Assembly (NCBI GenBank): GCA_016858145.1 | Contig: JAEHOE010000135.1 | Coordinates: 1-64,000, forward strand | Origin: Edaphochlamys debaryana | Taxonomy: Eukaryota; Chlorophyta; Chlorophyceae; Chlamydomonadales | Direction of reading: 5' to 3' | Length of the DNA: 64,000 bases | Part shown: positions 47,052 through 64,000 of the stretch, piece after piece | Position numbering within the stretch: position 1 is the first letter of the stretch | How the letters are laid out: each line of letters starts with the position of its first letter | Translations under genes and position numbers: made by a program | Notes under the pieces: model-generated | Seen by the model: only the letters and a program-made list of their open reading frames with translations | Told to the model about the DNA's origin: nothing | Database searches by the model: none

Positions 47052-50000
47052 TCAGTCCGTCCCGCCCCTCCCTCTGCCGCCCTCTGCCCTCAAGACTTAA
47101 GAACCCGGGTTCCTAACCATACATCCATCAATTCGGATTGAAAGATCCTTCCACGGACTCACTGTACGTCCGCGCCTTGATGCACGCCTGGATGGGGAGG
47201 GGGGAGGGGGAGAAAGGGGCACGTGGCAAGATCAGTGACTCTAGTGATGCAGGGATGGGATGGAGGTGTGCCTGCAACGAGGGCCCAGGCCCGAGTAGCC
47301 TACGTGAAAGGCTTGAAGGGGGAACGGGACAGCCAGCCACAACACTACTCCCAGCCCAGCCACTTGCCTCAAAAGAGTCTCCTAGGTCGGGTCGAGGCTG
47401 TGTAATGCCGTTAGGGCCCTGAAATATCTGGTTGTTGATGTAGCATTGGAGCTGATTGTTCGGGTTGCCGTCAGGAATGCCGTTTAGAGTGTGCCTGGTG
47501 GAGGGAACACCGAAACGCACCATATCAGGTATCAGCAGAACCGAGCTTCTTGCTTCGTTCTCGTGGCTTTCTCTTATCTAAGGTCCAACTCCCAAGCAAG
47601 GCAGGGACTCACTGGCACGTGGGGTCCGCATTGCACAATGAAAGGCAGGTGTCTCGGGTAGAAGAAGAGCTGAAACCAGTGTTAGCCCCCTGAATGTCCC
47701 TACGCGCGGGAGGGGGGCAGGGCATGCTTGGTGGGGTTCCGGCGTGAGTGCCCGGCGGATGCGGCCATGGATGTGGTGGGATGGTTATCCTGCCCTGCTC
47801 CCTTAACCTCCAAGTGGGTCACGCACGGTTTCGGACAAGCCACGAGCTGCCCACGGATGAACAAGCCCCCGGGACTGATGAAGCGCCCCGAGACACTCCC
47901 AGGCAGTGCCATCTAGTGACGACGACGCGGGCTGCTCACCAGCCCTTGACGCAGTAGTAGTTGCCGTAGTTCGGGCGGCTGAAGCAGGTGGTGAGGCTTG
48001 GATTCAGGCCGTTGGTGCCGTTGGCCCCCGCAAGACCGTTGCTTCGAAGCGCGCCTATCAAGGGGTAGGGTAGGTGGTGTGCAGGGGCGTCAACGAGGTA
48101 AGAAAGTAGCGCGCGGTGGGCTCCTTGGCAATGGGTACGTAGCGGGGGAGCGCTGGACATGCCCACAAAGCCAACCTGCGTCTCGCCATGACTCACACGT
48201 CATGCCCATGCTGTCGTACACGCTGAACTCGCAGCTGCCCATGCCCCCGCAGAGCTGCTGGCAGTCGTCCACGCTCTCAACCGCCGCCACAGTCTGGACC
48301 GTGTCTCCCTTGAGCTCGGTGCCAGAGAGGCACACGTCCAGGAGGCCTGGCGGGTGGGGGGCGTGAGGGTTGCGGGGCGGGGGATCAGGAGGGTGCGTGG
48401 GATGGCACCATGCAGAATGAAGCAAGTAAGGTGGCATGAAAGAGGGCTCGCGCGTTTTTAGGATAGAGCGCCATAACTGACGGCCCGCCCTCATGAACGC
48501 ATCATGACGCATCATGACAGCAGTAACTGTAGTGCCCTGCTTGTCGGCCAAGCTTGCCCGGCGCAGCCCTGCCTTCCCACAAACACTCACGGTAGTTGTC
48601 GCAGACCGTTTTGCACCAGCCGTCGTACAGGCCCGGGGAGCACGGTGGGCACACCACGTTACTCATGGCCCCCGAGGGCACGGCATCTGTGTCGCAGAAA
48701 CCCCAGGCGCAGTTCGCTCCGTTGAAGGACAGACACTCGACCGAGCCCTGTATCAGCGGGTTGCGGCGAGCGAGCATCTGGTTGCCAGAGGCTGCATCGT
48801 AGAAGCAGTCAAAGCCCAGGTCCCGGTACGTGAGGGAGGCTGCACGGGTACGACAGGGGAGAGATCGACTTAAGGCGGAGGAAATTGCAAGCGGTCTGGA
48901 GAGAGAGTGCCCCAGGGAAAGAGATGGGACAGCAAGCGCCCTCGCCCTCCAACTCCAGGTGAGACCTGCAGCTCTCATCCCCACCGGGTTCTCACGTGTT
49001 TGCTCGCAGACTTGATAGCACCAGCCGTTGTAACTGTAATCCACGGCCGAACACTGCATGGGGCAGACCTGCGGTCTGTTGGGCCCCGTTGGGGGCGCGT
49101 CGAGTTCGGAACACAGGCCCCAGTGGCAGTCCCAGTCATTGTTTGAAAAGCACTCCGGCTGGTTGGTGATTCGGTTAACGCGCGCCGGCAGCGAAGACGC
49201 AAGTATTCCGTCGGGGTAGTACGCGCCCCCAGCGGTGAAGACACAGCGGTAGTTGTAGGCCTCGCGGAGGTTGGCCGCTGCGTGCATGCCGGCATGGGTG
49301 CGGTGTAGCATGCTAGAGGGAAGGAGGAACTCAAGGCCCCAGCTCCAGCCGTCCTGCAAAAACCCATGCACGGACCTACCTGGCAGCGCCGATGGGGGAG
49401 GGCTGGGAGGCGGCGCGGGCCTGGGTGGCAGCGGCGGGGGCGGGACGCTGCTGATCCCCAGGACCACGGGGCACGCATTGTCGAGCGCCGTCGGGTAGCC
49501 GGTGACGTTGTGGGATATGCTGCAGCCCCGCCTGGACGACACCACCGCCCGCTGCCCGCCCTCGCCCAGGCACACCCAGTCCTTGATTCCGTCGGCGTCT
49601 GGGGCAGAGATTGAATCGTGCCAGAGGGGCAGGCAGGAGAGCTTGGATTGCTGGGTCGATGTCGACGGAAAAGGGGGCACAGAACCCCCGCGGCTTGCGA
49701 TGACTCAAGAGTCACGCCCCAAGCGCCAAGCGGCTTCCTGGCTGGCCCATCTTTGCCCGCCCGTCCCAGCCACTCACTGCAGTCAACGCTCAGTATGCGC
49801 CCCTCGCCGCAGAGGGAGCCCGAGGGGAAGGGGCAGGAGCCTGCAGGCGCGTGGACAGCGGATGGAGACCGATGTTAGCGGCACCACTTGGAGCGCGCAG
49901 CACGCTCAGAGCGAGTGAGAACTGAGTGCTGACCCACTCTGAATCGACCCAAGCGCACGTCACCCCTTCGGAAAGTACGCACTAAGCCCTTATACCCCTG

Positions 50001-53000
50001 AATTGCTCACCCTTTGCGGTGAGGGGCGGGCAGTAGGCGTCGGCCCTGCTCAGAGCGCAGCCCAGCCCCGAGCGGACCACCCGCAGGCTGCTGCGGTCGT
50101 CCCTCAGGAGGCAGGCCAGGTCCTTGACGCCGTCAGCGTCTGCGGAAGGAGGGTTCCGGGTCAATTATTGAGAGCTCTGGCCATGGAGGTCAGATGGCAG
50201 ACGCATATCAAAAGGATTGATTTGTTAAGGGGAGAGCAGGTGAGGGGTTGCTCAAGGCCAACTCAACTCAACTCAAGGCCACCGGCATTGGACACCTGAG
50301 AACGAAGTGAGGATGCGCAGCGGAAGCACGCTGCAAGCCCGCGGACGCAGAGGCCCCGCAGTGCCCTCGGCCGGCTCGACTGTGGCACCCACCGCAGTCC
50401 AGCTGCATGACCTCCCCGCCGGAGCACCAGTCGCCCGCTGGCTTGGCGCACATGCTCTTGAACACGGCCGGGCACGCGGACGTTGGGGCGTCGGGGTAGC
50501 CCGTGTCCGAGTCCGCCGTGCTGCACGCCAGGGAGGCGAGCGCCACGCCCCGTGCCCCGGTGGTGTCAAAGAGGACAGAGTCGAGAACACCGTCGCCGTC
50601 TGGAGGGCCGCCGTGTATAGGAGAGGGGGGTGCCTCAGGAGGGGAATGGAGTTGACGCTTTGAGTGAGGGTCAAAGCGTGGGCAAGGCATGTTCAGGCCC
50701 TCTGACCTATCTACAACAGAAACCCAGGTGTCAGGATGACCCACGCACAAACCTTTCTCTATTATCCGCTTGCTCGCCCCTCGCTAGCCTCGCTGGCTTC
50801 CCCCCTCAAGTGGCAGATTCAGACCCCCTGGCGCACGACAGAAACCTAAAACGCGTCAGGTCAACCCAGCCACGGACACACCGCAGTCAACTTGAAGCCG
50901 TGTCTCCCCGGCGACACCCTTGGTCCACTTCCCACATTCCATGGGTGGCGCTGCAGGGATTCCAGGGTGATCAGGGGGTGGAGGACGTGGCGTGTCAGCG
51001 GTGCAAGCCAGCGTTCTCAGTGGATCCCTCGAGCGGGGTGGCGATCCCGTGGCTCCCGCCGTCCTTCACCCCCGGCCGAAGCACGCTCACTGTAAACGCG
51101 GGCTTGAATGCAGGTCTCAAACGTGGGGCCCAGGTCGCTCCGGTACTCTGTGGCTCCGTTGGGGCCCGTGAACATGGCCGCCCTCAGGATGCAGTCCGAA
51201 TTTCCGGCAGCCGTCACAAGGACAAACCTGTTGGAGGAAACGGCAGAAGAGCTGTCAAAAGAGAAGCCCCAAAATACGAAGAGCCCCAGCCAAGAATTTC
51301 TATGGTGTTGTGATGACCCGCCCTACCCCGCCTACCCCGCCCCCACGGCTCACTGGCAGCCGAACGCGTAGGACTCGTCACAGAACCCCAGGCAGGAGCT
51401 CTTGTCCGCCACAGACACGTATGCAAAGTCGCCGCCCTGGATGTTCCTGCCGGCGGCAGTGCAGGGCAGGGACGGAGTCAAAACTGGACCGTATCATACT
51501 GCCGTACGTACCCAGCCGCACACGTCAAACAAGCCTCATCCTCTCTCTAGATACGCCGGCGGAGGCCCCTCACCAGCCCTTGATGCAGTAGTAGTTTCCA
51601 TAGTTGGGTCTGCTGAAGCAGGTCGTGGAGGACGCATCTGCGGTGTTGCCTCCCGTTGCGTTGGCGCTGATGGCATTTCGACGCAGCGAGCCTAGGGCAA
51701 GGGTGGGTGGGGTGCATGGGGTTGGTTGAGCGGACTGGGTTGCTCGAAGAGCACACCAGGGCTGGGGTTAGATGCGGCGTCGAATCCCATGCGGCGGCGG
51801 CGAGACCCTTGCTGCTGCTCATCATCAGCGGATCACACCAAGCTATCTAGCTTTTGGGAGGTACACCCCGCCCAGCAAGAAGCTCACATGTTCCCGAGCT
51901 GCCCTGCTGCTTGAAGACGCTAAACTCGCACGAAGCGTTCTTGTTGCACGCCGCCTGACATGCTGTTACGTTCAAGCTGGTAGCAGCGAAGGTGGGCTGG
52001 ATAGCCTCGCCCCGAATGTCAACACCGGGAAGGCACACGAGGCTGCCGCCACCTGCGGTAGCAGGGCACCAGAGGGTTCGAAGGGGCTTGTTGGGAGACG
52101 ACAAGCGAAGGACATGGGGGCAGCAGGGATGTGACACCGCAAGCTAGCACGCAAGGGGCCTGCTGGCTGCGTGCTCAATCGCATCAATTATCCCACAATA
52201 ATCCCGTCCTGCCCCGACCCAGCAAGCGCGCAGCAGCCCCACGCACCTCCACGCCTCCAGCCGAACCGGGGAGCATAGGCCTCCTGTATGCGCTTGAGGT
52301 CCGTGACGCTCAGCGCCCGGTTGTACACCAGGACCGCACCCAGCATGGTACGGCTCTTTGGCGTAACCGTACACTTGGAGGTCCCCACAGTCAGGCGGTC
52401 AGCACCAATCGAGATGCGGGCCTGATCCTCAAAAGCCTCACGCAGAGCAATTCCGCCGGTGGCGCTACCGTAGTAGTACGCCCCCGAGGTGCCGCCCTTC
52501 CGCCTGACAAAGGCGTGCAGGGTCCACCCCGGCTCCACGGGCACAGGCTTGGTGGTGTGGAAGGCATTGAACCAGGAGTGCGTTCCGGAAATAAAGGCCT
52601 CCCGAGTGCCAAACACCAGACCGCTAGTGCTCTGGTTCTGGCCGGCTCCAGAGCAGCTGAGCTCAGCTACCAGGTAGTTTGCGGTCCAGTCAGTGAGGTC
52701 AGTCTTGAGTGACTGAATCACAACAATGGTAAAGGGCGCTTCAGGATCCGTGTTCCAGTTCCGGAGGTCCTTCGTCATGACCCCGGCAACCGACGTCAGA
52801 TCCAAGATCTGGTTACTGTCGTACGTGGCGTAACCGTTGCCATCCACATCCTCCAACGCTAGAGTGGCGTCTATGGCAGGGCCAAACTGAGGGTAGGGAA
52901 GGAAAAGGAGCACACGGTGAGGTAGCCGTGGTTTGAGGGCCAATCGACTATTGTCGAGCGAGTACCAAGACGTCAAGCTTCAGTTCCCACCATACACCAC

Positions 53001-56000
53001 GTCCCGCCCGCACCAGCATGTCCCTCCAGGCGGTTGCCTGGGTGCTGTCCTGGCGGGACACCAGGACGTTTCTGGCTGAGTCAAAATAGGCGCACTCAGG
53101 GCGCAGGTCGGCCGGGAGAGCCGTGGCGGCGGCGGCTGCGTGTAGGGGTGTCAAGAGGGAGAGGCGCGCGGCAGTGTGAGGAGGGCACGAGAGGTAGGGG
53201 TGCGTGCCGGCGGCCTTTGCAAACGTCTTAGCGGCAAGACGTAGGGACCCTAACCACACGGTAACTGTCCAGAGGGTACGGTAACTGAGTGCACGCACTG
53301 ACCGTTCGTGCCGGAGATGAACGGCGAGGGGGGCGGGGTGGGCGGGGCAGGTGGAGGGGATGGCGGTACGGGTGGGAACGGCACCGGCGGTGAGGGAGGC
53401 GGAGGCGGGCTGGGTGGAGGGCTGGGGGGCGGGCTAGGGGGTGGGCTGGGCGGTGGGCTGGGGGGTGGGCTGGGCGGCGGGCTCGGGGGCGGCGGGGGTG
53501 ACGGCACGTTGCAGCATGCGATTAACAGTCCGTTCAGTGCCGTGTCGTCCCCGCCGCAGCATTCGAAGCGGATCTGTCAGAGGGAGGGGCGAGACAGGCG
53601 CAGCGCAAGGCCAGGCCTTGGTCATATGCACCGTGCTAGCGCGCGCACCCATGTGCGCTCACAGCTGTGTCGTACAGCACACCCCAATGCTTCGAACCCC
53701 GCCCTCTTCCCGCCAAACCTACCTGCATTCCGCAGATGAACTGGCCCCAGTTGCAGAATTTCCATCTCACCCAGCTGCGGGGACGGAATGGAAGCGATAT
53801 GGTGCCGGGTTATTACATGGAAGGCAAGCAGTTATCAGGGCGACAGCATGCAGGCTCGGACCGCACACAGCATGCCGTTAGCAAACACACCGCCCGCACA
53901 GACACCAACTGCCAAGCAGCAAGCTTGCGCCTGTGTCACGTCGCTCGCTTAACATCAGCCGCTTCCCCCATCACGCCCGCCCGCACAGACTCACTCTCCA
54001 TAGTAGCCGTTGTGCGGCGCTAGTATGGTGCCATCACTACAGTACAGCTGCACGCTGTTGCCCGCCGTGTCGTCCCCTCCGCCCTGGTCCCCCTCCAATC
54101 GGAAGTTGGCGCCAATGGCATAGCTGTGCGGGGAGGAGGGGCCAGGGAGGAAGGAGAGGAGGAACGTGGGAACCAGTCAGATAATGGCGGGCGCGAGGAG
54201 GTGGAGTGGGGTACGGCGGAGGGCGGGGGTGTGGGGATGGCGGTTGACATGAGTGAGGGGGAGTGACGTGCGCGCAAGGGGAGCTTCCCATGAGAGGCAG
54301 CAGAGCCACGTCGGCATGGCACCGCAGGGCGCATCAGCTTGGCGGCGCACGGAGTGCATGTTGGGCTTGTTTGGGCCGGCGGGCCCCGTCCAACCAACAG
54401 CGCTGCCCGACCAAACACCTCAAAGCGGAGCACGAGTGAGCTCCGTCCGTCCCACCTGACCGCTGACTGCCTCACACGCGCGCGTGTCCAGCCCCCCAAC
54501 CAATATCCACCCGCGCGTCGTCGCCCACGACTCACGAGCCGTATGGGCAGTACGCCATGCCGCTCCAGTCGCCCCAGATGCCCCCCTCCACCAGAACGGT
54601 TGTGCTGGTTGAGGGGTCGTCCGAGCAGGCCACGTTGATGCCTGCGACCAGGACACCGGGTGCGAGAGGTAGGGTTTCCAGTTTCAGGGAGAGGGTTGCT
54701 TGGGGCGGCGGGGTGGGGGGCGCGCGGGGGGTGGGGGGCGCGCGCCCGATGACCCCAGTGATCCGAGCTGGGAGGGCACGCACAGCGCTCCCCTGGAGGT
54801 GTCCTTACCGTTGAGGGCGGTGTCGTCACCCCTGGAGGCCGCACAGAGGGCAGCCAGGGAGCGAGAGAGAGGGGCATGCACGTTGGGGCGGGGACTCGAG
54901 CCACAAATGCCAACAAGCGGGGGCTTGCCAGCTAGAGAGCGAGGTCAGCTCCGCTCCCCCACATACGGTCAAGTTAAACCCACAGGCTCGCCGCGCGCTC
55001 ACCCGCCCTGCTCCGGCTCAATCCTCAGCTGCAGCCCAGTAATGTACGACGGCTGGCCCGTGATGGCAGACGTGCAGTATTGCCAGCCTTTCCAGTCGCC
55101 CCTGGATGGGCGGGGCGCACAGAAGGTATTGGCAAGCAAGCGCCCGCCTGCGTTCCAGGCAGGTATCGTCCAGCTGGCAGCGCAAGGAGGACCCCAGAAG
55201 CCCGCTCCTGCGCCCTCGGCAGTCCCTGTCTGAGCCAAGCCGGCTCATCATACACGCCCGGCCCACATACGCAGGTAGACAGTTGACCCCAGCGACCCCG
55301 CGCGCGCGCTCTGACGCACCAGAAGCCGTTAGCAACCGTGTAGATGTCCTTGAAGGAGTCGGTGGGAACTGCGCCAGATAGAGGGAGGCGAGGGGGGAGA
55401 AGGTGGGGCGGCACGGACCGACGGCTCAGGGGAGAAGGGGGTAGGAAGGAACGTGTGGATACGAAATGGACTTCAGGAGGAGTTACGTGTAACTCAGCCC
55501 TGTCACACACCCGCACCGGGCTCCTTGATGGCTCCCTCCATCCCATCCCCGCCCTTCAAATCTGCCGAACCCCCTAGGCAAGAACACCTCTGGCCAGAAT
55601 ACGACCCTGTGACCTCCTCACCGCCCATTCTCTGCCTTCTGCCGGGGGGGTGTCCGGCGGACCCGGACGGCGGCACACTGCGGTGCGTGGCCCTTCCCCC
55701 GTTGCCCCTGCCGCCCTGCAAGCCAGCCCTCCGCTGCCCGCCCCCGTGCGGACCCTTCGACTCGAGTGACCGTGCTGACCCCTTCGCGTGACACAAAGTG
55801 ACCCCCTGCGCATATCGCATCGTCTACTTCGCTCTCGGCCACCGCTGCCGTCGCAAGCCGACGCTGCTGACACGAGGCGGTTATGGCGCACACGCGAACG
55901 GGGACGGACCGACTTTTACTCGCCATCGCAGCTGCCGATGCGCCCTTTGTAACCACGCCCACGTCAATGGGGCGCCAGCGCGCAGGGCGCAGCAGTTCGC

Positions 56001-56146
56001 TCGCAGGTCCGTCACTTGCTCATGGCTGGCGCAGGCCTCCGCTTCTGTGTATGATCCCTAGAATAATGACTCTCATACTCACCGTAAGCATCGGTGGTCG
56101 TCCAGAGCCAGAGCAGGAGCACGTTGAGAAGAAGGATGTTCCGCAT
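47052..56146 (-). CDS. Secreted VMO-I / SPPP / LamG / PAN matrix protein
   Basis: Twenty-seven exons on the complement: 56083-56146, 55320-55368, 55003-55101, 54809-54831, 54536-54641, 53995-54123, 53723-53774, 53303-53573, 53014-53135, 52247-52886, 51888-52052, 51574-51691, 51354-51446, 51091-51227, 50882-50950, 50393-50599, 50011-50139, 49778-49840, 49380-49598, 48996-49277, 48591-48839, 48197-48346, 47940-48054, 47613-47699, 47368-47494, 47163-47187, 47052-47095. All phases fit: 1277 residues. A signal peptide (MRNILLLNVLLLWLW) leads. Residues about 22-195 show the VMO-I pattern: GDW/GEW turns, three GDDTA-type loops, paired Cys. A Ser-Pro-Pro-Pro spacer (about 196-250) follows, then a LamG-like domain (306-518). 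The rest is Cys-rich: PAN-like module (519-689), three DC[DN]xDGxxD cassettes (690-918), a pair of ECF/ECL Cys domains (919-1095), and a second PAN-like module (1096-1255). Likely a cell-wall or matrix adhesin. The exon 25 donor is GC. Confidence 0.85.
51574..52720. other. Probable gene-conversion tract, left partner
   Basis: From exon 12 through two introns to the middle of exon 10, this copy is almost identical to 62226-63365, introns included. Introns elsewhere in the two genes are clearly diverged. Identity falls off inside exon 10 at about 52720-52740. Confidence 0.7.
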
Positions 56147-57687
56147 CCCGAGCCTCCTCGGCTTCGCGCTCCTTTCGCTTGTAGCACTATCGAAGGAGTC
56201 CAGCATTCTTAGCTGCTACCAACAAGAGGCAGGCGTGCGTTCAAAACTCTGCGCTCCGCAAAGGCGCGGGCGTCGCGGCAGCTGCTGTACACATGTTGGA
56301 GAGCGCTCGAGAATAAAAGCTGTCAGGAATGCAGTGCACACACTATCGGGTGCCGGTTTTGCCAGCGGGTTGGAGCACTGGCCGACGCGTACGAGCTCGC
56401 AGTCGTTGGCGAGCCGGCTGGTCGCGTCAAGTCGCCCGTGCCAACCGGCAGGATGGATGTGGGTCCAACCGCAAGGAGGACAAGCGGGCGTAAGAGAGAC
56501 GGCGCGCCGTGACGGTGCAGGTGACACGCCCCTTCGACCTGTCTCCTACCTCTCGCTCGCTCCATCTATCCCCCGCCGCGGTGGCCGCCACGCTCGACAC
56601 CACACCACACATACAAGCCCAGCGTGGCGTTACTCCTAGCCTGTCCTAAGCGACCAACAGGCCCCCTAGCCGAGCGGGGCCGGTGCTGTGGTTGCTAAAC
56701 GCCACTTCACGGCTCTAACCCAGTCGCACATTGCATCGCGCCTTATCCCGCCCCCTTCTACTCCTTCCTCCACACACCCCAAGCGTCTCCGCCCCCTCCT
56801 GTTCCCCCCCTCACCTCGTCACCTCACCTCCCCACACTCCCTCGTGCTGCAAGGACTACACTGCATTAACAATATCCATAAATAAAATTACCCCCATCGG
56901 ACTTGCAATGACATCCCCAACAACAGAGGCCTGTGGAAAGGCCACATCAACATACCATTCAATTGACTTCCACATGCCCGCCACCAGCTGCAGCCGGCAG
57001 CAGATAGGGGGTGCATGACATGCGCGCCGGCCAATGACAACAACAGCGGCGAACCGAAGAGCCTGCCGAGCATGCAAGCAACCCCCCCGCGCTTCATACG
57101 ATACGAGGACGGAGCCGTCAACTGTGATACGAAATGAATCTCACTGCCCCGATCCTACCTCGTCCTGCACCAGGGACGAAGCCAGAGATAGATACTAAAC
57201 TGTACGGCATGTAAACCCAGGCCTAGTCCTACCTTTCCGAGGGCATGAACTTCAATACACTGGCATGGGCACGCCACTCAGGGGTTGCCCAGCTTCGGGG
57301 CTTGTTCTCCTAGGATGGCACCTCACAGACTACGATGCGGGACTGCCTTACCACACATTGTACGTAAACCTGCTGTCACTTGCTGATCTCCGCCGCCTGG
57401 GGCTGGCGTGCCTGTGGTCTTCCAGGTGAGTGCCTTCCCACCGCTTGGCGTGCGACCGGGACGTTCGGTTGGGGTCATCACGGAGTGGGCTCGACTGTGG
57501 TGGTGTGAAGGGCATCAGGGCGGTGAGCGGCTGGGAGAGCGCTAAGGAGGCATGTGAGGATACGCTGTGGACAATGTATGGAGCCTCTGTACGCCCAGCC
57601 ACTTGTCAGAATGGCGGAGAATGAACGCTGTACAATTTGGGAACCCCTGTAACCCATGGGCGTGCTCGATCGCCCAACACTGCCGAG
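56147..57687. other. Intergenic between tandem paralogs, no gene supported
   Basis: It contains the promoter of the gene starting at 56146 and the 3' flank of the paralog ending at 57688. No clear TATA box in the correct orientation and no coding series were seen. The AT-richer part near 56860-56960 holds nothing recognisable. Confidence 0.5.
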
Positions 57688-60600
57688 TCAGTCCGTCCCG
57701 CCCCTCCCTCTGCCGCCCTCGGCCCTAGAGACTGTAAAACCGGGGGTCCTACCCATGCATCCATCAATCCTTTCACACACTCACTGTACGTCCGCGCCTT
57801 GATGCACGCCTGGGGATGGTTAATGGGAGAAGGGGAACAGGGGGAAGGGGGGCCATGGGTGTGTGGGGGGGGCGAAGGGGGTGGCCGAGGAGGTACAGCT
57901 GCTGAGCGCGGGCTTGGGCCACGCATGCATGCCTTAATTGCGGTTCCCGGTCCTCCCTCCCCGTTAGCCGCATCGCGTTGTTGCTTCTGTGTGAGTAGGG
58001 TATGGATTTATGAGACCCAGGGAGACTCAGAGGGGCTCCAGGCAGGCCCGCACTTGCCTCGAAGGAGTCCCCCAGGTCGGGTCGGGGCTGCGTAGCGCCG
58101 TTGGGCCCCAGGAACATCTGGTTGTTCGTGTAGCACTGGTACTCGCCGGTGCCCCCATTGTAAAGGCCGTTGAGCGTGTGCCTGTGGAGGGATGGCCAAG
58201 GCAACACCAAACGGATTAGCCAGTGGCTGGCTTATCTTCACACTCCTTTGCAGGGCGGGGAGGTCTCGCTCAGTTGCTTCCCTCTACGCCCCCTACGCCT
58301 GACACCCAAGCGAGAGGCTTACTGGCACGTGGGGTCCGTGTTACACATGGCCAGGCACGTGTCCCGGACAGAGGGGGACATGAACTGGATGTTGGCGGCC
58401 TTGATGTCCCTGCATGGGTGGCAAGATGAAACGGGGTGAGAGAGTTGTGGTGGAGGCAATGAACGGGCATGGCAGGTTTGACCATGGATTGCGCTTTCAA
58501 GGTGCGTGCTGCACTTCGTCGGCTGCCATGACAAGTGCGGTGCCACCGGAATCCCGGGCATGCTTCCTGAGAACGACGCGGGCTGCTCACCAGCCCTTGA
58601 CGCAGTAGTAGTTGCCGTAGTTCGGGCGGCTGAAGCAGGTCGTGAGGCTCGGGCTCAGGCCGTTGGTGCCGTTGACCCCCGCAAGACCGTTGCGCCGAAG
58701 CGTGCCTGTCAACGGGCAATAGGCGGGGATTTGGGGTTGCGAGCTCCCGGGTTCCCTCAGCATGCATATGCGTAGATCTCTGGACACGCCAACAAAGCCA
58801 ACGCCGCCGTCCCGCCATGACTCACACGTCATGCCCGTGCTGTCGTACACGCTGAACTCGCAGCTGCCCACGCCCCCGCAGAGCTGCTGACAGTCCTCCA
58901 CGCTCTCAACCGCAGCCACAGTCTGGACGGTGTCCCCCTTGAGCTCGGTGCCAGAGAGGCACACGTCCAGGGGGCCTGGCGGGTGGGGGTGTGGGGAGAC
59001 CGGGGCTGAGTCGCAAAAGCAAGGAAGGCATGCATGATAGGAGGCCCCAACAGATATCTCGAGGCATTTATCTTGCCGAGCGCCGGGCGGCGCAACCAAC
59101 GAGGGGGCCACAGCGCAGGCCGCTAGGACGGAAGAGCAAAGGCCATGTGAGATGCAAAAACAGTCAGCCCCCGCCAAAGCCCAAGGAGTGCTGCTTAGGC
59201 CACTTTATTCATGAACCTATGGTGGAACGCGTCCCCCTTGGTATTTGGGCCACATGACAGGTACCCCACAACGAACCACTTTACTCACGGTAGTAATCGC
59301 AGACCGTTTTGCACCAGCTGTTACCCATGCCCGGGGAGCATGGCTGGCACACCACGTTGTTCATAGGCCCCGAGGGCACGGCATCCGCACTGCAGAAACC
59401 CCAGGCGCAGTCGGCTCCGTTGAAGGACAGACACTCGACCACGCCGTTGATCAGGGGGTTGCGGCGAGCCAGTAGCTGGTTGCCAGCGGCTGGAACGTAG
59501 AAGCAGTCAAAGCCCAGGTCCCGGTACGTGAGGGCGGCTGCACGGGTAAGACAGGGAATAGATCGAGTTAAGGCAGGGGGAATTGCCAGTGGTCTGGAAA
59601 GCCCCAACGGAAGGACGGATGGACAGCCGCCGCGCGCCACCCTTCACATCGCTCCGGAAATGGGAGCTGGCACTCTACTCCCACGCCCCCTTTGCTTACG
59701 TGTTTGCTCGCAGACTTTATAGCACCATTGACTGTAACCGACACTGTAGTCTATGGCCGAGCATTGATATGGGCAAATCTGCGGTCTGTTGGGCCCCGTT
59801 GGGGGCGCGTCGAGCTCTGAACATAGGCCCCAGTGGCAGTCCCAGTCATTGTTCGAAAAGCACTCCGGCTGGTTGGTGATTCGGTTGACGCGCGCCGGCA
59901 GCGAAGACGCCAGTATTCCGTTGGGGTAGTACGCGCCCCCAGCGGTGAAGACACAGCGGTAGTTGTAGGCCTGACGGAGGGTGGCACCTGCATGCCGGCA
60001 GGAGGGGAGGTGGATGGGCGCGGCATTTAAGAAGGAAGGGGGTTTCCCGCTCTACTTCGCAAAGCTAGCGCTCCCGGACGTCCCCTAACGGGACCGCCCT
60101 CCCGCTAGCTAGGCAGCCCCAGCAGCCGTTCCGAACCCGCCAGGGACACACCTGGCAGTGCCAATGGGGGTACTGGAGGTGGCCGGGGAGGCGGCGCGGG
60201 CCTGGGTGGCAGGGGCGGGCGCGGCACGCTGCTGATCCCCAGCACCACTGGGCACGCGTTGTCGAGCGCCGTCGGGTAACCGGTGATGTTGTGGGATATG
60301 CTGCAGCCCCGCCTGGACGACACCACAGCCCGCTGCCCGCCCTCGCCCAGGCAGACCCAGTCCTTGATTCCGTCGGCGTCTGGGGCATGCGGGAGGGATG
60401 GGCAGAGAGTGAACAGCGCAAGATGCAGGAGGCATGCACACGTTGCTGGGTCAATGTCAGAGAGTGGGCACAGAACCTACCCCCGCCGGTTGCGGTGACT
60501 CAAGAGTCACGCCCCAAGCACCAAGCGGCTTCCTTGCTGGCCCATCTTCATCACCCGTCCCAGCCACTCACTGCAGTCAACGCTCAGTATGCGCCCCCCG

Positions 60601-63600
60601 CCGCAGAGGGAGCCCGAGGGGAAGGGGCAGGAGCCTGCGGGCGTGCGTGCGGGCAGCAGATAGGGACCAACGTCAGGCGAAGCTGGGGCTAAGGCACCGA
60701 AGCGACGATGCCCACCCATTGCTCACCCTTTGCTGTGAGGGGAGGGCAGTAGGCGTCGGCCCTGCTCAGAGCGCAGCCCAGCCCCGAGCGGACCACCCGC
60801 AGGCTGCTGCGGTCGTCCCTCAGGAGGCAGGCCAGGTCCTTGACGCCGTCAGCGTCTGAACGGTTGGGGGGCAGATGCGATGGGGTTGGTGTTGCAATCT
60901 ATCGAGAGCGCTTGGAGAGAGGCGTCTCTACTACGGTGGATGGAGCAAGGACGGCTAAGAAGGATAGGCGTGCCCCCCCGTCGATCGCCCCATGTCACCG
61001 AAAACCAAGCAAGGGCACAGAACACCGAACAAGTCAGGGTGCCCAACAACCCTGGGAGCATGCTGCAAGCCCGCAAACGCAGCGGCCCCGCAGTGCCCCC
61101 GCCCCGCTCGAGGCTGACATACACCCACCGCAGTCCAGCTGCATGACCTCCCCGCCGGAGCACCAGTCGCCCGCCGGCTTGGCGCACATGCTCTTGAACA
61201 CGGCCGGGCACGCGGACGTTGGGGCGTCGGGATAGCCCGTGTCCGAGTCCGCCGTGCTGCACGCCAGGGAGGCGAGCGCCACGCCCCGCGCTCCGGTGGT
61301 GTCAAAGAGGACGGAGTCGAGGACGCCGTCGCCGTCTGGAGGGCCGCCATGTATAGGAGAGGGGGGTGCCTCAGAGATGTGGAGTGTGGGTATAACGGCA
61401 TGGTGAGGCTTTTGCTGGGGCTCGCTCAGGAACAGAAACCCTGCGTGCCCGCATCAGCATGACCCACGCACCGCAGTCAACTTGAAGCCGTGTCTCTCCG
61501 GCGACACCCTTCGTCCACTTCCCACACTCCATGGGAGGTGCTGCACGCAGGGGTCGCAGAAGAATTGAGCAGTGGGTGGATGACGATGCAAGCCTTCTCA
61601 GTGGATCGCTTAGATCGCTGGACCGTGGGGTGTTTCATTCATTTCCCAGCAACGATCAGGGGACATAATTCTATGTTAGAGGACAGAGGGTAAGGGGCGC
61701 CCACTTACCGTAAACGCGCGCCTTTATGCACGTCTCAAACGTCGGGCCCAGGTCGCCAGGGGGTGCTGTGGATCCGTGCGGGCCCGTGAACATGGCAGTC
61801 CTCAAGATGCAGTCCGGGTACCCGGCAGCCGTCACCAGGACAAACCTGTCGAAACGAGGCAGAGCAGGAGCAGGCAGCGGTCAGAAGCTACCCCGCCCGT
61901 CAAAACCTCCGAAGCAAGGGCTGAGAGCCCCACGAGTGCATGCCTGATTATGTGCTGCGATAAGTATGCCCGGCGTCTCACTGGCAGCCGAACGCGTAGG
62001 ATTCGTCACAGAACCCCAGGCAGGAGCTCTTGTCCGCCACAGATACGTATCCAGTGTCGCCACCCTGGATGTTCCTGCCGGGGATTAGGGGGGCAAAGAC
62101 AGGATCATCTCGTCTGTCATTTATGTACCCTCCGCCTTTGACAGCCGCACCCGTCAGAGGGCCCCATCATCTCTCTAGACGCGCGCGCGAGCCCCTCACT
62201 ACCCATCTTCGTTTAAGCCCCTCACCAGCCCTTGATGCAGTAGTAGTTTCCATAGTTGGGCCTGCTGAAGCAGGTGGTGGAGGACGCATCTGCGGTGTTG
62301 CCTCCCGTTGCGTTTGCGCTGATGGCATTCCGGCGGAGCGAGCCTAGGGCAAGGGTGGGTGGGGCGCATGGGGTTGGTTGAGCGGACTGGGTTGCTCGAA
62401 GAGCACACCAGGGCTGGGGTTAGATGCGGCGTCAAATCCCATGCGGCGGCGGCGAGACCCTTGCTGCTGCTCATCATCAGCGGATCACACCAAGCTAGCT
62501 TTTGGGAGGTAGGTACACCCCGCCCAGCAAGCTCACATGTTCCCGAGCTGCCTTGCTGCTTAAAGACGCTAAACTCGCACGAAGCGTTCTTGTTGCACGC
62601 CGCCTGACATGCTGTTACGTTCAAGCTGGTAGCAGCGAAGGTGGGCTGGATAGCCTCGCCCCGAATGTCAACACCGGGAAGGCACACGAGGCTGCCGCCA
62701 CCTGCGGTAGCAGGGCACCAGAGGGTTCGAAGGGGCTTGTTGGGAGACGACAAGCGAAGGACATGGGGGCAGCAGGGATGTGACACCGCAAGCTAGCACG
62801 CAAGGGGCCTGCTGGCTGCGTGCTCAATTCATCGATTAACCCACAATAATCCCGTCCTGCCCCAACCCGGCAAGCACGCAGCAGCCCCACGCACCTCCAC
62901 GCCTCCAGCCGAACCGGGGAGCATAGGCCTCCTGTATGCGCTTGAGGTCCGTGACGCTCAGCGCCCGGTTGTACACCAGGACCGCACCCAGCATGGTACG
63001 GCTCTTTGGCGTAACCGTACACTTGGAGGTCCCCACAGTCAGGCGGTCAGCACCAATCGAGATGCGGGCCTGATCCTCAAAAGCCTCACGCAAAGCAATA
63101 CCGCCGGTGGCGCTCCCATAGTAGTATGCCCCCGAGGTGCCGCCCTTCCGCCTGACGAAGGCGTGCAGGGCCCACCCCGGCTCCACGGGCACAGGCTTGG
63201 TGGTGTGGAAGGCGTTGAACCAGGAGTGCGTTCCGGAAATAAAGGCCTCCCGAGTGCCAAACACCAGACCGCTAGTGCTCTGGTTCTGGCCGGCTCCAGA
63301 GCAGCTGAGCTCAGCCACCAGGTAGTTTGCGGTCCAGTCGATCAGGTCAGTCTTGAGTGACTGAATCACAACAATAGTGAATGGTGCTGTGGGGTCTGTG
63401 CTCCAGTTCCGCAGGTCCCTCGTGTTGACCCCGGCAACCGCCGTGAGATCCAAGATCTGGTTACTGTCGTACGTGGCGTAACCGGTGCCATCCACGTCCT
63501 CTAGCGCCAGGGTTGCGTCTATGGCAGGGCCAAACTGAGGGCAGGGGAGTCAAGGGATGGGAGTAGACAAGACAGTGAGGGACGCTCCTCCATCCGGCAC

Positions 63601-64000
63601 AGCGCGTGGTTTGCGAGCCAATCGGGTACTGCCTATCTACATCATGCTTCAGGTGCCACCATACAAGCAATGTCCCACGCCTCGAGCCTGAGGTCTGATC
63701 AATGTCCCACGTCCCGCCCGCACCTGCATGTCCCTCCAGGCGGTTGCCTGGCTGCCGTCCACACGGGACACTAGGACGTTTCTGGCTGAGTCAAAGTAGG
63801 CGCACTCGGGCCGCAGGTCGGCCGGGAGAGCCGTGGCGGCGGCTGTGGGGGGTCAAGGGCGGGGCAGGGCACTTTGCGATTCAAAGGGGGCGGGCGGGGC
63901 GGCAGTGCGTGTGCGAAGGCCGCAACAGGGGTGCTTGCGGGTGGCCTTCGCGACCAGCTAGCCCGGCCCCATCGAGCCTAACCATCCCAAAACGGTACGG
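57688..64000 (-). CDS. Tandem paralog of the VMO-I/LamG/PAN gene, 5' truncated
   Basis: Nineteen exons in the window, on the complement: 63724-63842, 62895-63534, 62537-62701, 62226-62343, 61982-62074, 61709-61845, 61472-61540, 61129-61335, 60727-60855, 60572-60634, 60152-60379, 59700-59987, 59289-59537, 58826-58975, 58591-58705, 58323-58409, 58058-58181, 57785-57809, 57688-57731. Exon order, phases and most lengths equal those of the gene at 47052-56146. Differences are whole codons: 119 against 122, 228 against 219, 288 against 282 and 124 against 127 nt. The part seen starts in the segment before the LamG-like domain and runs to the same C-terminal tail (RAEGGRGRGGTD). Signal peptide, VMO-I and Ser/Pro parts should lie beyond 64000. 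The GC donor before the CIKARTY exon is conserved. No frameshift or early stop was found, so both copies look functional. Confidence 0.85.
62226..63365. other. Probable gene-conversion tract, right partner
   Basis: The matching segment in the paralog; differences from 51574-52720 are a few substitutions and indels of 3-5 bases near the exon 11 donor. Confidence 0.7.

Follow-up and report, generated by a model that had tools for sequence, protein, structure and literature searches.

Why exon shuffling should be restricted to Metazoa is asked in a passage of a 2021 review (PMC8001218) that ties the process to animal multicellularity, and a passage of a 2012 review (PMC3488318) describes the preference of mobile animal domains for phase 1 introns, as against a general excess of phase 0. 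A gene of the unicellular green alga Edaphochlamys debaryana raises the same question outside the animals. The gene lies on the minus strand, at 56146..47052, of the 64,000-nucleotide stretch of contig JAEHOE010000135.1 analyzed here (the window), and its predicted product is a secreted mosaic that joins a VMO-I (VOMI) head, proline rods, a LamG-like domain, PAN/apple domains, and further Cys-rich modules. The class 1-1 pattern of the module exons, which begin and end at phase 1 introns, is the mark of animal-type exon shuffling and suggests that this process operated in a unicellular green alga.

Gene model and tandem paralogue

The final model was built by hand, with the exons checked by phase and homology, and gave 27 exons encoding 1277 residues without internal stops; 25 of the 26 introns were GT-AG and one, after exon 25, was GC-AG. 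These figures equal those of an earlier prediction made from the letters of this DNA alone (the original prediction), which were already in view when the last exon was chosen. A dynamic-programming model (25 exons, 1175 codons including the stop) was rejected because some of its exons were spurious and exons 7, 8, 15, and 24 were absent from it. Exon 1 (56083..56146; all exons given here are on the minus strand) encodes the signal peptide MRNILLLNVLLLWLWTTTDAY, with a peak 19-residue hydropathy of 1.53 at residue 4, and ends in a phase 1 intron. The start codon is not certain: an in-frame ATG is present at 56206, 20 codons upstream of 56146, and the inner ATG is absent from the tandem paralogue, which starts at a different, upstream ATG. 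The last 14 residues, encoded together with the stop by exon 27 (47052..47095) as in the original prediction, are likewise not certain and form the weakest part of the model. A stop reached by reading through exon 26 (1274 residues) was dropped and exon 27 adopted because the tandem copy shares 13 of its 14 residues. The gene corresponds to the deposited hypothetical protein HYH03_016097 (P0001, 1229 residues), which agrees with our model over most of its length, lacks part of exon 8, and has a different C-terminal end. The missing part runs from the final stretch of VOMI into the beginning of the rod, yet with it the rebuilt VOMI aligns to the end of its Pfam profile.

Directly upstream lies a tandem paralogue (C135:67051..57688, minus strand), of which exons 9-27 and the end of intron 8 fall within the window (57688..64000) and exons 1-8 beyond it. 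All 27 exons could be placed, exons 2, 4, and 27 by eye, in the same order and with the same phases, including the GC-AG intron. The two proteins were 88.8% identical over 1274 aligned residues, and the coding sequences gave a nonsynonymous divergence (dN) of 0.071 and a synonymous divergence (dS) of 0.254, a ratio of 0.28. By module, dN/dS showed strong constraint for the SPPP rod (0.04), the calcium-loop-like (DxDG) repeats (0.05), the LamG-like domain (0.15), and the first PAN pair (0.16), looser for the Cys-rich pair (0.35) and VOMI (0.39), and free for the signal peptide (1.30). In forced alignments, 22 of the 26 introns were 46-75% identical between the copies, and introns 9-11 and 26 were 78-97% identical. 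Introns 10 and 11 (window 52246-51692) reached 97 and 94%, respectively, a similarity that suggests recent gene conversion around them. No separate near-identical entry for the paralogue was present among the protein matches found, so the deposited annotation may lack it or contain it in broken form.

A module series of this length could also arise by error, if adjacent genes had been wrongly fused into one model. The gene is large, the deposited protein departs from ours at exon 8 and at the end, and our model was built from genomic sequence, all of which would leave room for such an artefact. However, the deposited protein fuses the same modules, and the complete module order is repeated in the tandem copy. 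Moreover, the final part of VOMI lies in a single exon with the SPPP rod at all five VOMI-LamG loci examined, of seven; because both share this exon, also present at C35, C78, and C101, their fusion is independent of splicing. Since the tandem copy keeps all exons while most introns have diverged, the exons, judged from sequence, form one gene and not two, as originally predicted, signal peptide included. A fusion artefact is largely refuted already and extremely improbable.

Domain identity

The first module, VOMI (53508..55368), comprises exons 2-8 (first part of the latter), corresponding to residues 36-195, and has three internal repeats. It matched Pfam PF03762 with E 6e-33 and 114.7 bits (cut-off 25) over profile positions 7-167 of 167, and the solved VMO-I structure 1VMO with E 1.1e-28 over chain residues 4-162, so that the VMO-I identity of the head domain is unambiguous. 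The homology to hen VMO-I extends over the full length, and both proteins have three repeats. Whereas hen VMO-I is a single small cationic domain, the VOMI of the window gene is acidic, with an isoelectric point (pI) of 4.1, and is one of some ten modules. The second part of exon 8 (53310..53507), the exon that also holds the VOMI end, encodes the SPPP/PPSP rod at residues 197-262. A signal peptide and SPPP/PPSP repeats, both traits of hydroxyproline-rich glycoproteins, were thus found together; a Pfam scan of the window protein gave no match to the pherophorin domain DUF3707 up to E 1, and an NCBIfam scan of three proteins gave no match.

The next module, encoded by exons 9-10 (52247..53135, residues ~265-518) and bordered on either side by a phase 1 intron, is a LamG-like domain of ConA type. 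Several observations tell against this assignment. A Pfam scan of the domain up to E 1 gave no LamG match, nor did any of the four close LamG paralogues scanned have a Pfam match, and the LamG-like domain of Chlamydomonas schloesseri stayed below the Pfam cut-off at 12.2 bits. The model of paralogue P0027, from which the fold matches were obtained, had a mean predicted local distance difference test (pLDDT) score of 45.7, with 10-residue means of 26-39 early in the LamG-like region and 33-81 later. Because there was no direct Pfam match, we named the domain LamG-like and did not file it as Laminin_G_3. On the other side, five distant LamG exons in the genome showed 34-39% identity with the window domain (E 2e-25 to 6e-29), and of the three scanned, two passed the Laminin_G_3 cut-off of PF13385 (29.1 and 30.4 bits vs 27.6) and one had no match. 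The fold matches of the P0027 model, itself of low to modest confidence, were ConA-like jelly rolls, including neurotoxin binding domains, sialidases, and arabinanases, an arabinanase domain being among the best. These three groups share a jelly roll, and no functional link to them was drawn. The LamG-like assignment is thus supported by homologues and by a fold prediction of low to modest confidence.

Two PAN/apple pairs were identified, the first in exons 11-14 (51091..52052, residues ~519-689) and the second in exons 22-26 (47163..48346), which include the GC-AG intron 25. PF00024 was matched above its cut-off with 38.2 bits in two stretches, and PF14295 with 26.1 bits, slightly below its cut-off of 27. 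Each of the four domains had six Cys residues with the borders placed at the tandem joint; an earlier border choice had divided the second pair into 7 and 5. A structural model of paralogue P0005 resolved only the PAN pair (regional pLDDT 52-79, overall mean 37.9), and Foldseek matched this region to apple domains from E 4.9e-6. Between the two PAN pairs, exons 15-19 (49450..50950), all running from phase 1 to phase 1, encode three Cys-rich repeats, all of which contain a loop of the form DxDxDGxxD or DxNxDGxxD (the DxDG repeats), and the end of exon 19 (49380..49449) encodes a second, short proline-rich rod. These are followed by two Cys-rich modules with 8 Cys each, in exon 20 (48996..49277) and exon 21 (48591..48839), each a single symmetrical 1-1 exon; exon 20 gave no match in a Pfam scan up to E 1.

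The rebuilt model, Pfam, and homologues confirmed the order VMO-I, SPPP, LamG-like, and PAN given by the original prediction, which had missed the three DxDxDG repeats, the second rod, the Cys-rich pair, the second PAN pair, and the tandem copy. The Pfam and structural checks that it proposed bore out VMO-I and PAN, both above cut-off, and the apple fold in P0005; Laminin_G_3 failed as a direct match and appeared in two of the three distant homologous exons, with jelly-roll matches at low to modest confidence in P0027.

Cassette family with different ends

Searches of the genome (141.9 Mb) found no fewer than 25 LamG exons with an identity of ≥60%, and the LamG-PAN-PAN-DxDG cassette had at least 25 close genomic copies with differing ends. 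At 25 loci, VOMI lay ahead of seven cassettes, Cys-rich modules followed eight, WSC-like modules followed nine, and eight had neither C-terminal end at the search thresholds applied; VOMI and the Cys-rich pair occurred together, as the full architecture, only in the tandem pair. End modules were assigned by the position of search matches, with stretches of at least 8 kb (or the window) examined for 6 of the 25 loci. The deposited E. debaryana paralogues, entered as hypothetical, Apple domain-containing, or uncharacterized proteins, belong to the same family and showed the same core with different ends, although the shortened forms may be annotation errors. In a tree of LamG exons alone, in which at least three rows were partial, at least three changes were needed at the N-terminal end and five at the C-terminal end. 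These data suggest that the cassette family diversified by exchange of its N- and C-terminal modules. This reading is weakened by the deep branches of the tree, which do not resolve, so that the starred branches force just 1-2 changes per group, and by three of the 25 loci having been seen as short pieces, where the absence of a module rests on the search threshold.

Other members of the family were recorded beside these. Near-identical or identical copies at C102:80807-98789 (direct, every ~8.6-8.9 kb), at C29:870311 and 883064 (direct), and at C246:17338 and 56524 (inverted) are, by their sequences, recent segmental duplications. A second, distant LamG family is located at C91, C179, C157, C298, and C11; at C179, one strand carries the order DxDG, LamG, PAN, unlike the window gene, and may span more than one gene. 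An array of VOMI exons with proline rods, with no close LamG match between them, occupies C107:150620-176961 and corresponds to the deposited entries HYH03_014566 and 014567; their long, repetitive models resemble merged genes. The protein P0019 contains Pfam PF05548 (the gametolysin family), proline rods, and a pair of PAN domains that is related to that of the window gene, and would link this PAN module to wall-lysing enzymes. Apart from the family, the window contains a 25-kb satellite array (19476-44625) with a 131-base unit in ~190 copies matching at 96%.

Intron phases at module borders

In the window gene, all eight introns at module borders (the end of the signal peptide included) were in phase 1, compared with 7 of the 18 others (p 0.004). 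When the DxDG joints were counted as borders, the figures were 12 of 12 and 3 of 14 (p 0.00005), and with the two outer borders excluded they were 6 of 6 and 9 of 20 (p 0.02). Both PAN pairs have the internal phases 1, 2, 2, a pattern that copying of the entire block would produce.

At other loci, the same modules were found with different neighbours: DxDG repeats with proline rods at C193, and Cys-rich or WSC-like C-terminal ends after the same cassette. At C172, two WSC-like modules replace the Cys-rich pair, each as one symmetrical 1-1 exon at the matching phase 1 joint. Six consecutive exons at C193 (149650-152000; DxDG, rod, DxDG, DxDG, rod, DxDG) were all of class 1-1, and the genome searches listed no LamG or PAN match there. 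At C179, one PAN module is a single 1-1 exon; the PANb exon at this locus starts in phase 1 but, because the domain is itself interrupted by an intron, ends in phase 2. Altogether, the whole module exons at these three loci, proline rods included, were of class 1-1 in ten of ten cases, one of which (DxDG plus rod at C172) is a homologue of window-gene exon 19 and hence not independent, and six of which are open in another frame too; the module set the frame. Outside the window, splice sites inspected by eye defined the exon borders; the end of an eleventh exon, a LamG 5' exon, was improvised, so its entry phase alone counts. Among the distant LamG copies, for which five loci were fetched, phase 1 was found at all three 3' borders read and at the single 5' border read.

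Three points count against a phase-based argument for shuffling. The module borders were chosen after the phases had been seen, which makes this evidence post hoc; the counts cover the window gene and the other loci read; and the VOMI/rod, DxDG/rod, and PANa/PANb borders carry no intron in the window gene. Phase 1 borders might also stem from G|G proto-splice sites in linkers rich in both glycine and proline, the modules having been joined in another way, or once in an ancestor. Such an origin would agree with the GC-rich window, with the joint inheritance of borders by paralogues, and with Patthy's account, which in a passage of PMC8001218 links phase 1 with linkers of glycine and with the ends of signal peptides. 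However, the module-internal introns of the same gene are mostly in phase 2 or 0 (11 of 14, or 11 of 18 with the DxDG joints counted as inside), and the same module types are flanked by phase 1 beside other neighbours. We consider the proto-splice origin rather doubtful, and infer exon shuffling as the route of module exchange.

Like the window protein, the exon-shuffled matrix proteins of animals are secreted mosaics in which the introns at the signal peptide and between modules are in phase 1; unlike them, the window gene belongs to a single-celled green alga and uses proline rods, VOMI, and DxDG repeats as modules. We tentatively propose, as a serious possibility, that a unicellular alga independently ran animal-style class 1-1 shuffling of lectin-like, apple, and calcium-loop modules and proline rods, which diversified its secreted recognition or matrix proteins; shuffling would then extend beyond Metazoa and would not require multicellularity. 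A literature search of open-licence papers found no title on exon shuffling in volvocine algae.

Distribution beyond E. debaryana

Homology searches of a database of 5.8 billion proteins found the cassette in E. debaryana only, a result limited by the scoring of ~8000 candidates within a length window. A query containing the rod was dominated by SPPP words and gave 20 matches, 11 of them outside the family, 8 of which had no BLASTP alignment. Without the rod, 17 of the 18 matches were from E. debaryana; 16 had LamG and DxDG, 15 of these also PAN, and the single match from another organism was to DxDG alone. Of the 70 proteins from the homology searches, those of other organisms each matched at most one of the window gene's module types (E 1e-3), in keeping with the original prediction, which knew of no described protein with this order. 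Gonium and C. schloesseri turned up as single-module matches, which serves as a rough control for the presence of volvocine proteomes in the database.

The original prediction had introduced VMO-I as a fold of egg vitelline membranes, which proved misleading: the 43 proteins matching the VOMI region included 5 labelled Gonium pectorale and 2 labelled bacterial, and P0056 has Pfam VOMI together with PAN domains. In G. pectorale GPECTOR_9g467 (P0042), the deltaproteobacterial P0033, and P0056, VOMI is joined to other modules, as in the window gene, but their titles name EF-hand or RICIN, or, in P0056, Pfam PAN is present, and none of the three matched the window LamG, DxDG, or PAN domains (E 1e-3). 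C. schloesseri HYH02_003080 (P0018) has a LamG-like domain, 26% identical, beside proline rods, and differs from the window gene in having SRCR, WSC, and pherophorin domains alongside. We found no published account of this architecture or of the module exchange, although the supplementary tables of PMC8226300 may list the family, and the literature search listed no paper about VMO-I in algae, PAN in volvocine species, the predators of E. debaryana, or laminin G in the walls of Chlamydomonas; the VMO-I papers that it did give were on animals. A search of PMC11015965 for PAN, LamG, laminin, and apple domain found none of these terms.

Proposed role of the mosaic protein

The product is fairly probably a secreted multivalent binder of glycans or glycoproteins of the wall or mucilage, and one of at least 25 cassette copies exchanged at phase 1 introns. 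In this proposal, a VMO-I beta-prism head would sit on a stiff proline, probably hydroxyproline, rod; after it would come the LamG-like jelly roll with a pair of apple domains, then the three calcium-loop-like repeats and a short rod, and finally the Cys-rich pair and another pair of apple domains. The rods would space the binding heads, calcium and disulfides would stiffen them, and multivalent binding would cross-link or coat the cell wall or mucilage outside the cell. Exon shuffling at phase 1 introns would have swapped the N- and C-terminal modules of the cassette, probably because selection favoured different binding partners. Location, ligands, calcium, and role are all conjectural at this stage, as was the wall, mating, or matrix adhesin role offered by the original prediction. 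Volvocine wall proteins typically have proline rods and carry arabinosylated hydroxyproline. Together with the arabinanase fold match of the LamG-like model, this makes wall glycans a natural first ligand candidate, no more.

According to passages of PMC9363672 and PMC4904793, hen VMO1, whose main role is uncertain, binds ovomucin, heparin, and N-acetylglucosamine oligomers. The VOMI of the window gene has an acidic pI of 4.1, whereas chicken VMO1 is described as cationic in PMC9363672; because of this, the heparin and antibacterial traits of chicken VMO1 are not transferable, and a cationic antimicrobial reading of VOMI is weakened.

The main alternative is a defence family of recognition lectins, whose swapped ends would sense microbes or their polysaccharides. 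The proline rods, typical of volvocine wall proteins, the acidic VOMI, and the strong constraint on LamG and DxDG (dN/dS 0.15 and 0.05), which are not fast-changing, speak against it. In its favour, the family is multi-copy, has differing ends, and was found in E. debaryana only; chicken VMO1 inhibits Listeria according to a passage of PMC4904793; and a passage of PMC8226300 reports that the top expanded orthogroup of this alga is SRCR/CTL, with 16 genes, and suggests immunity or chemoreception. We regard a defence role as unlikely, although no observation made here distinguishes it from a wall role. A mating or agglutination protein of gametes is very unlikely: the sequenced strain is of mating type minus and mating pairs exist, as stated in a passage of PMC8226300, but the 25 copies are spread over many contigs and no observation made here points to mating. 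The rod with heads, if hydroxyproline-rich, does resemble the agglutinin design.

In an alga of which mating pairs are cultured, the exchanged heads of sugar-binding type also form a concrete set for work on how the wall or microbes may be recognized. According to a passage of PMC8226300, the volvocine algae include both unicellular and multicellular species, and several of their genomes have been assembled. Secreted mosaics with the class 1-1 signature in a single-celled relative of Volvox would make the question of why shuffling is restricted to Metazoa directly testable.
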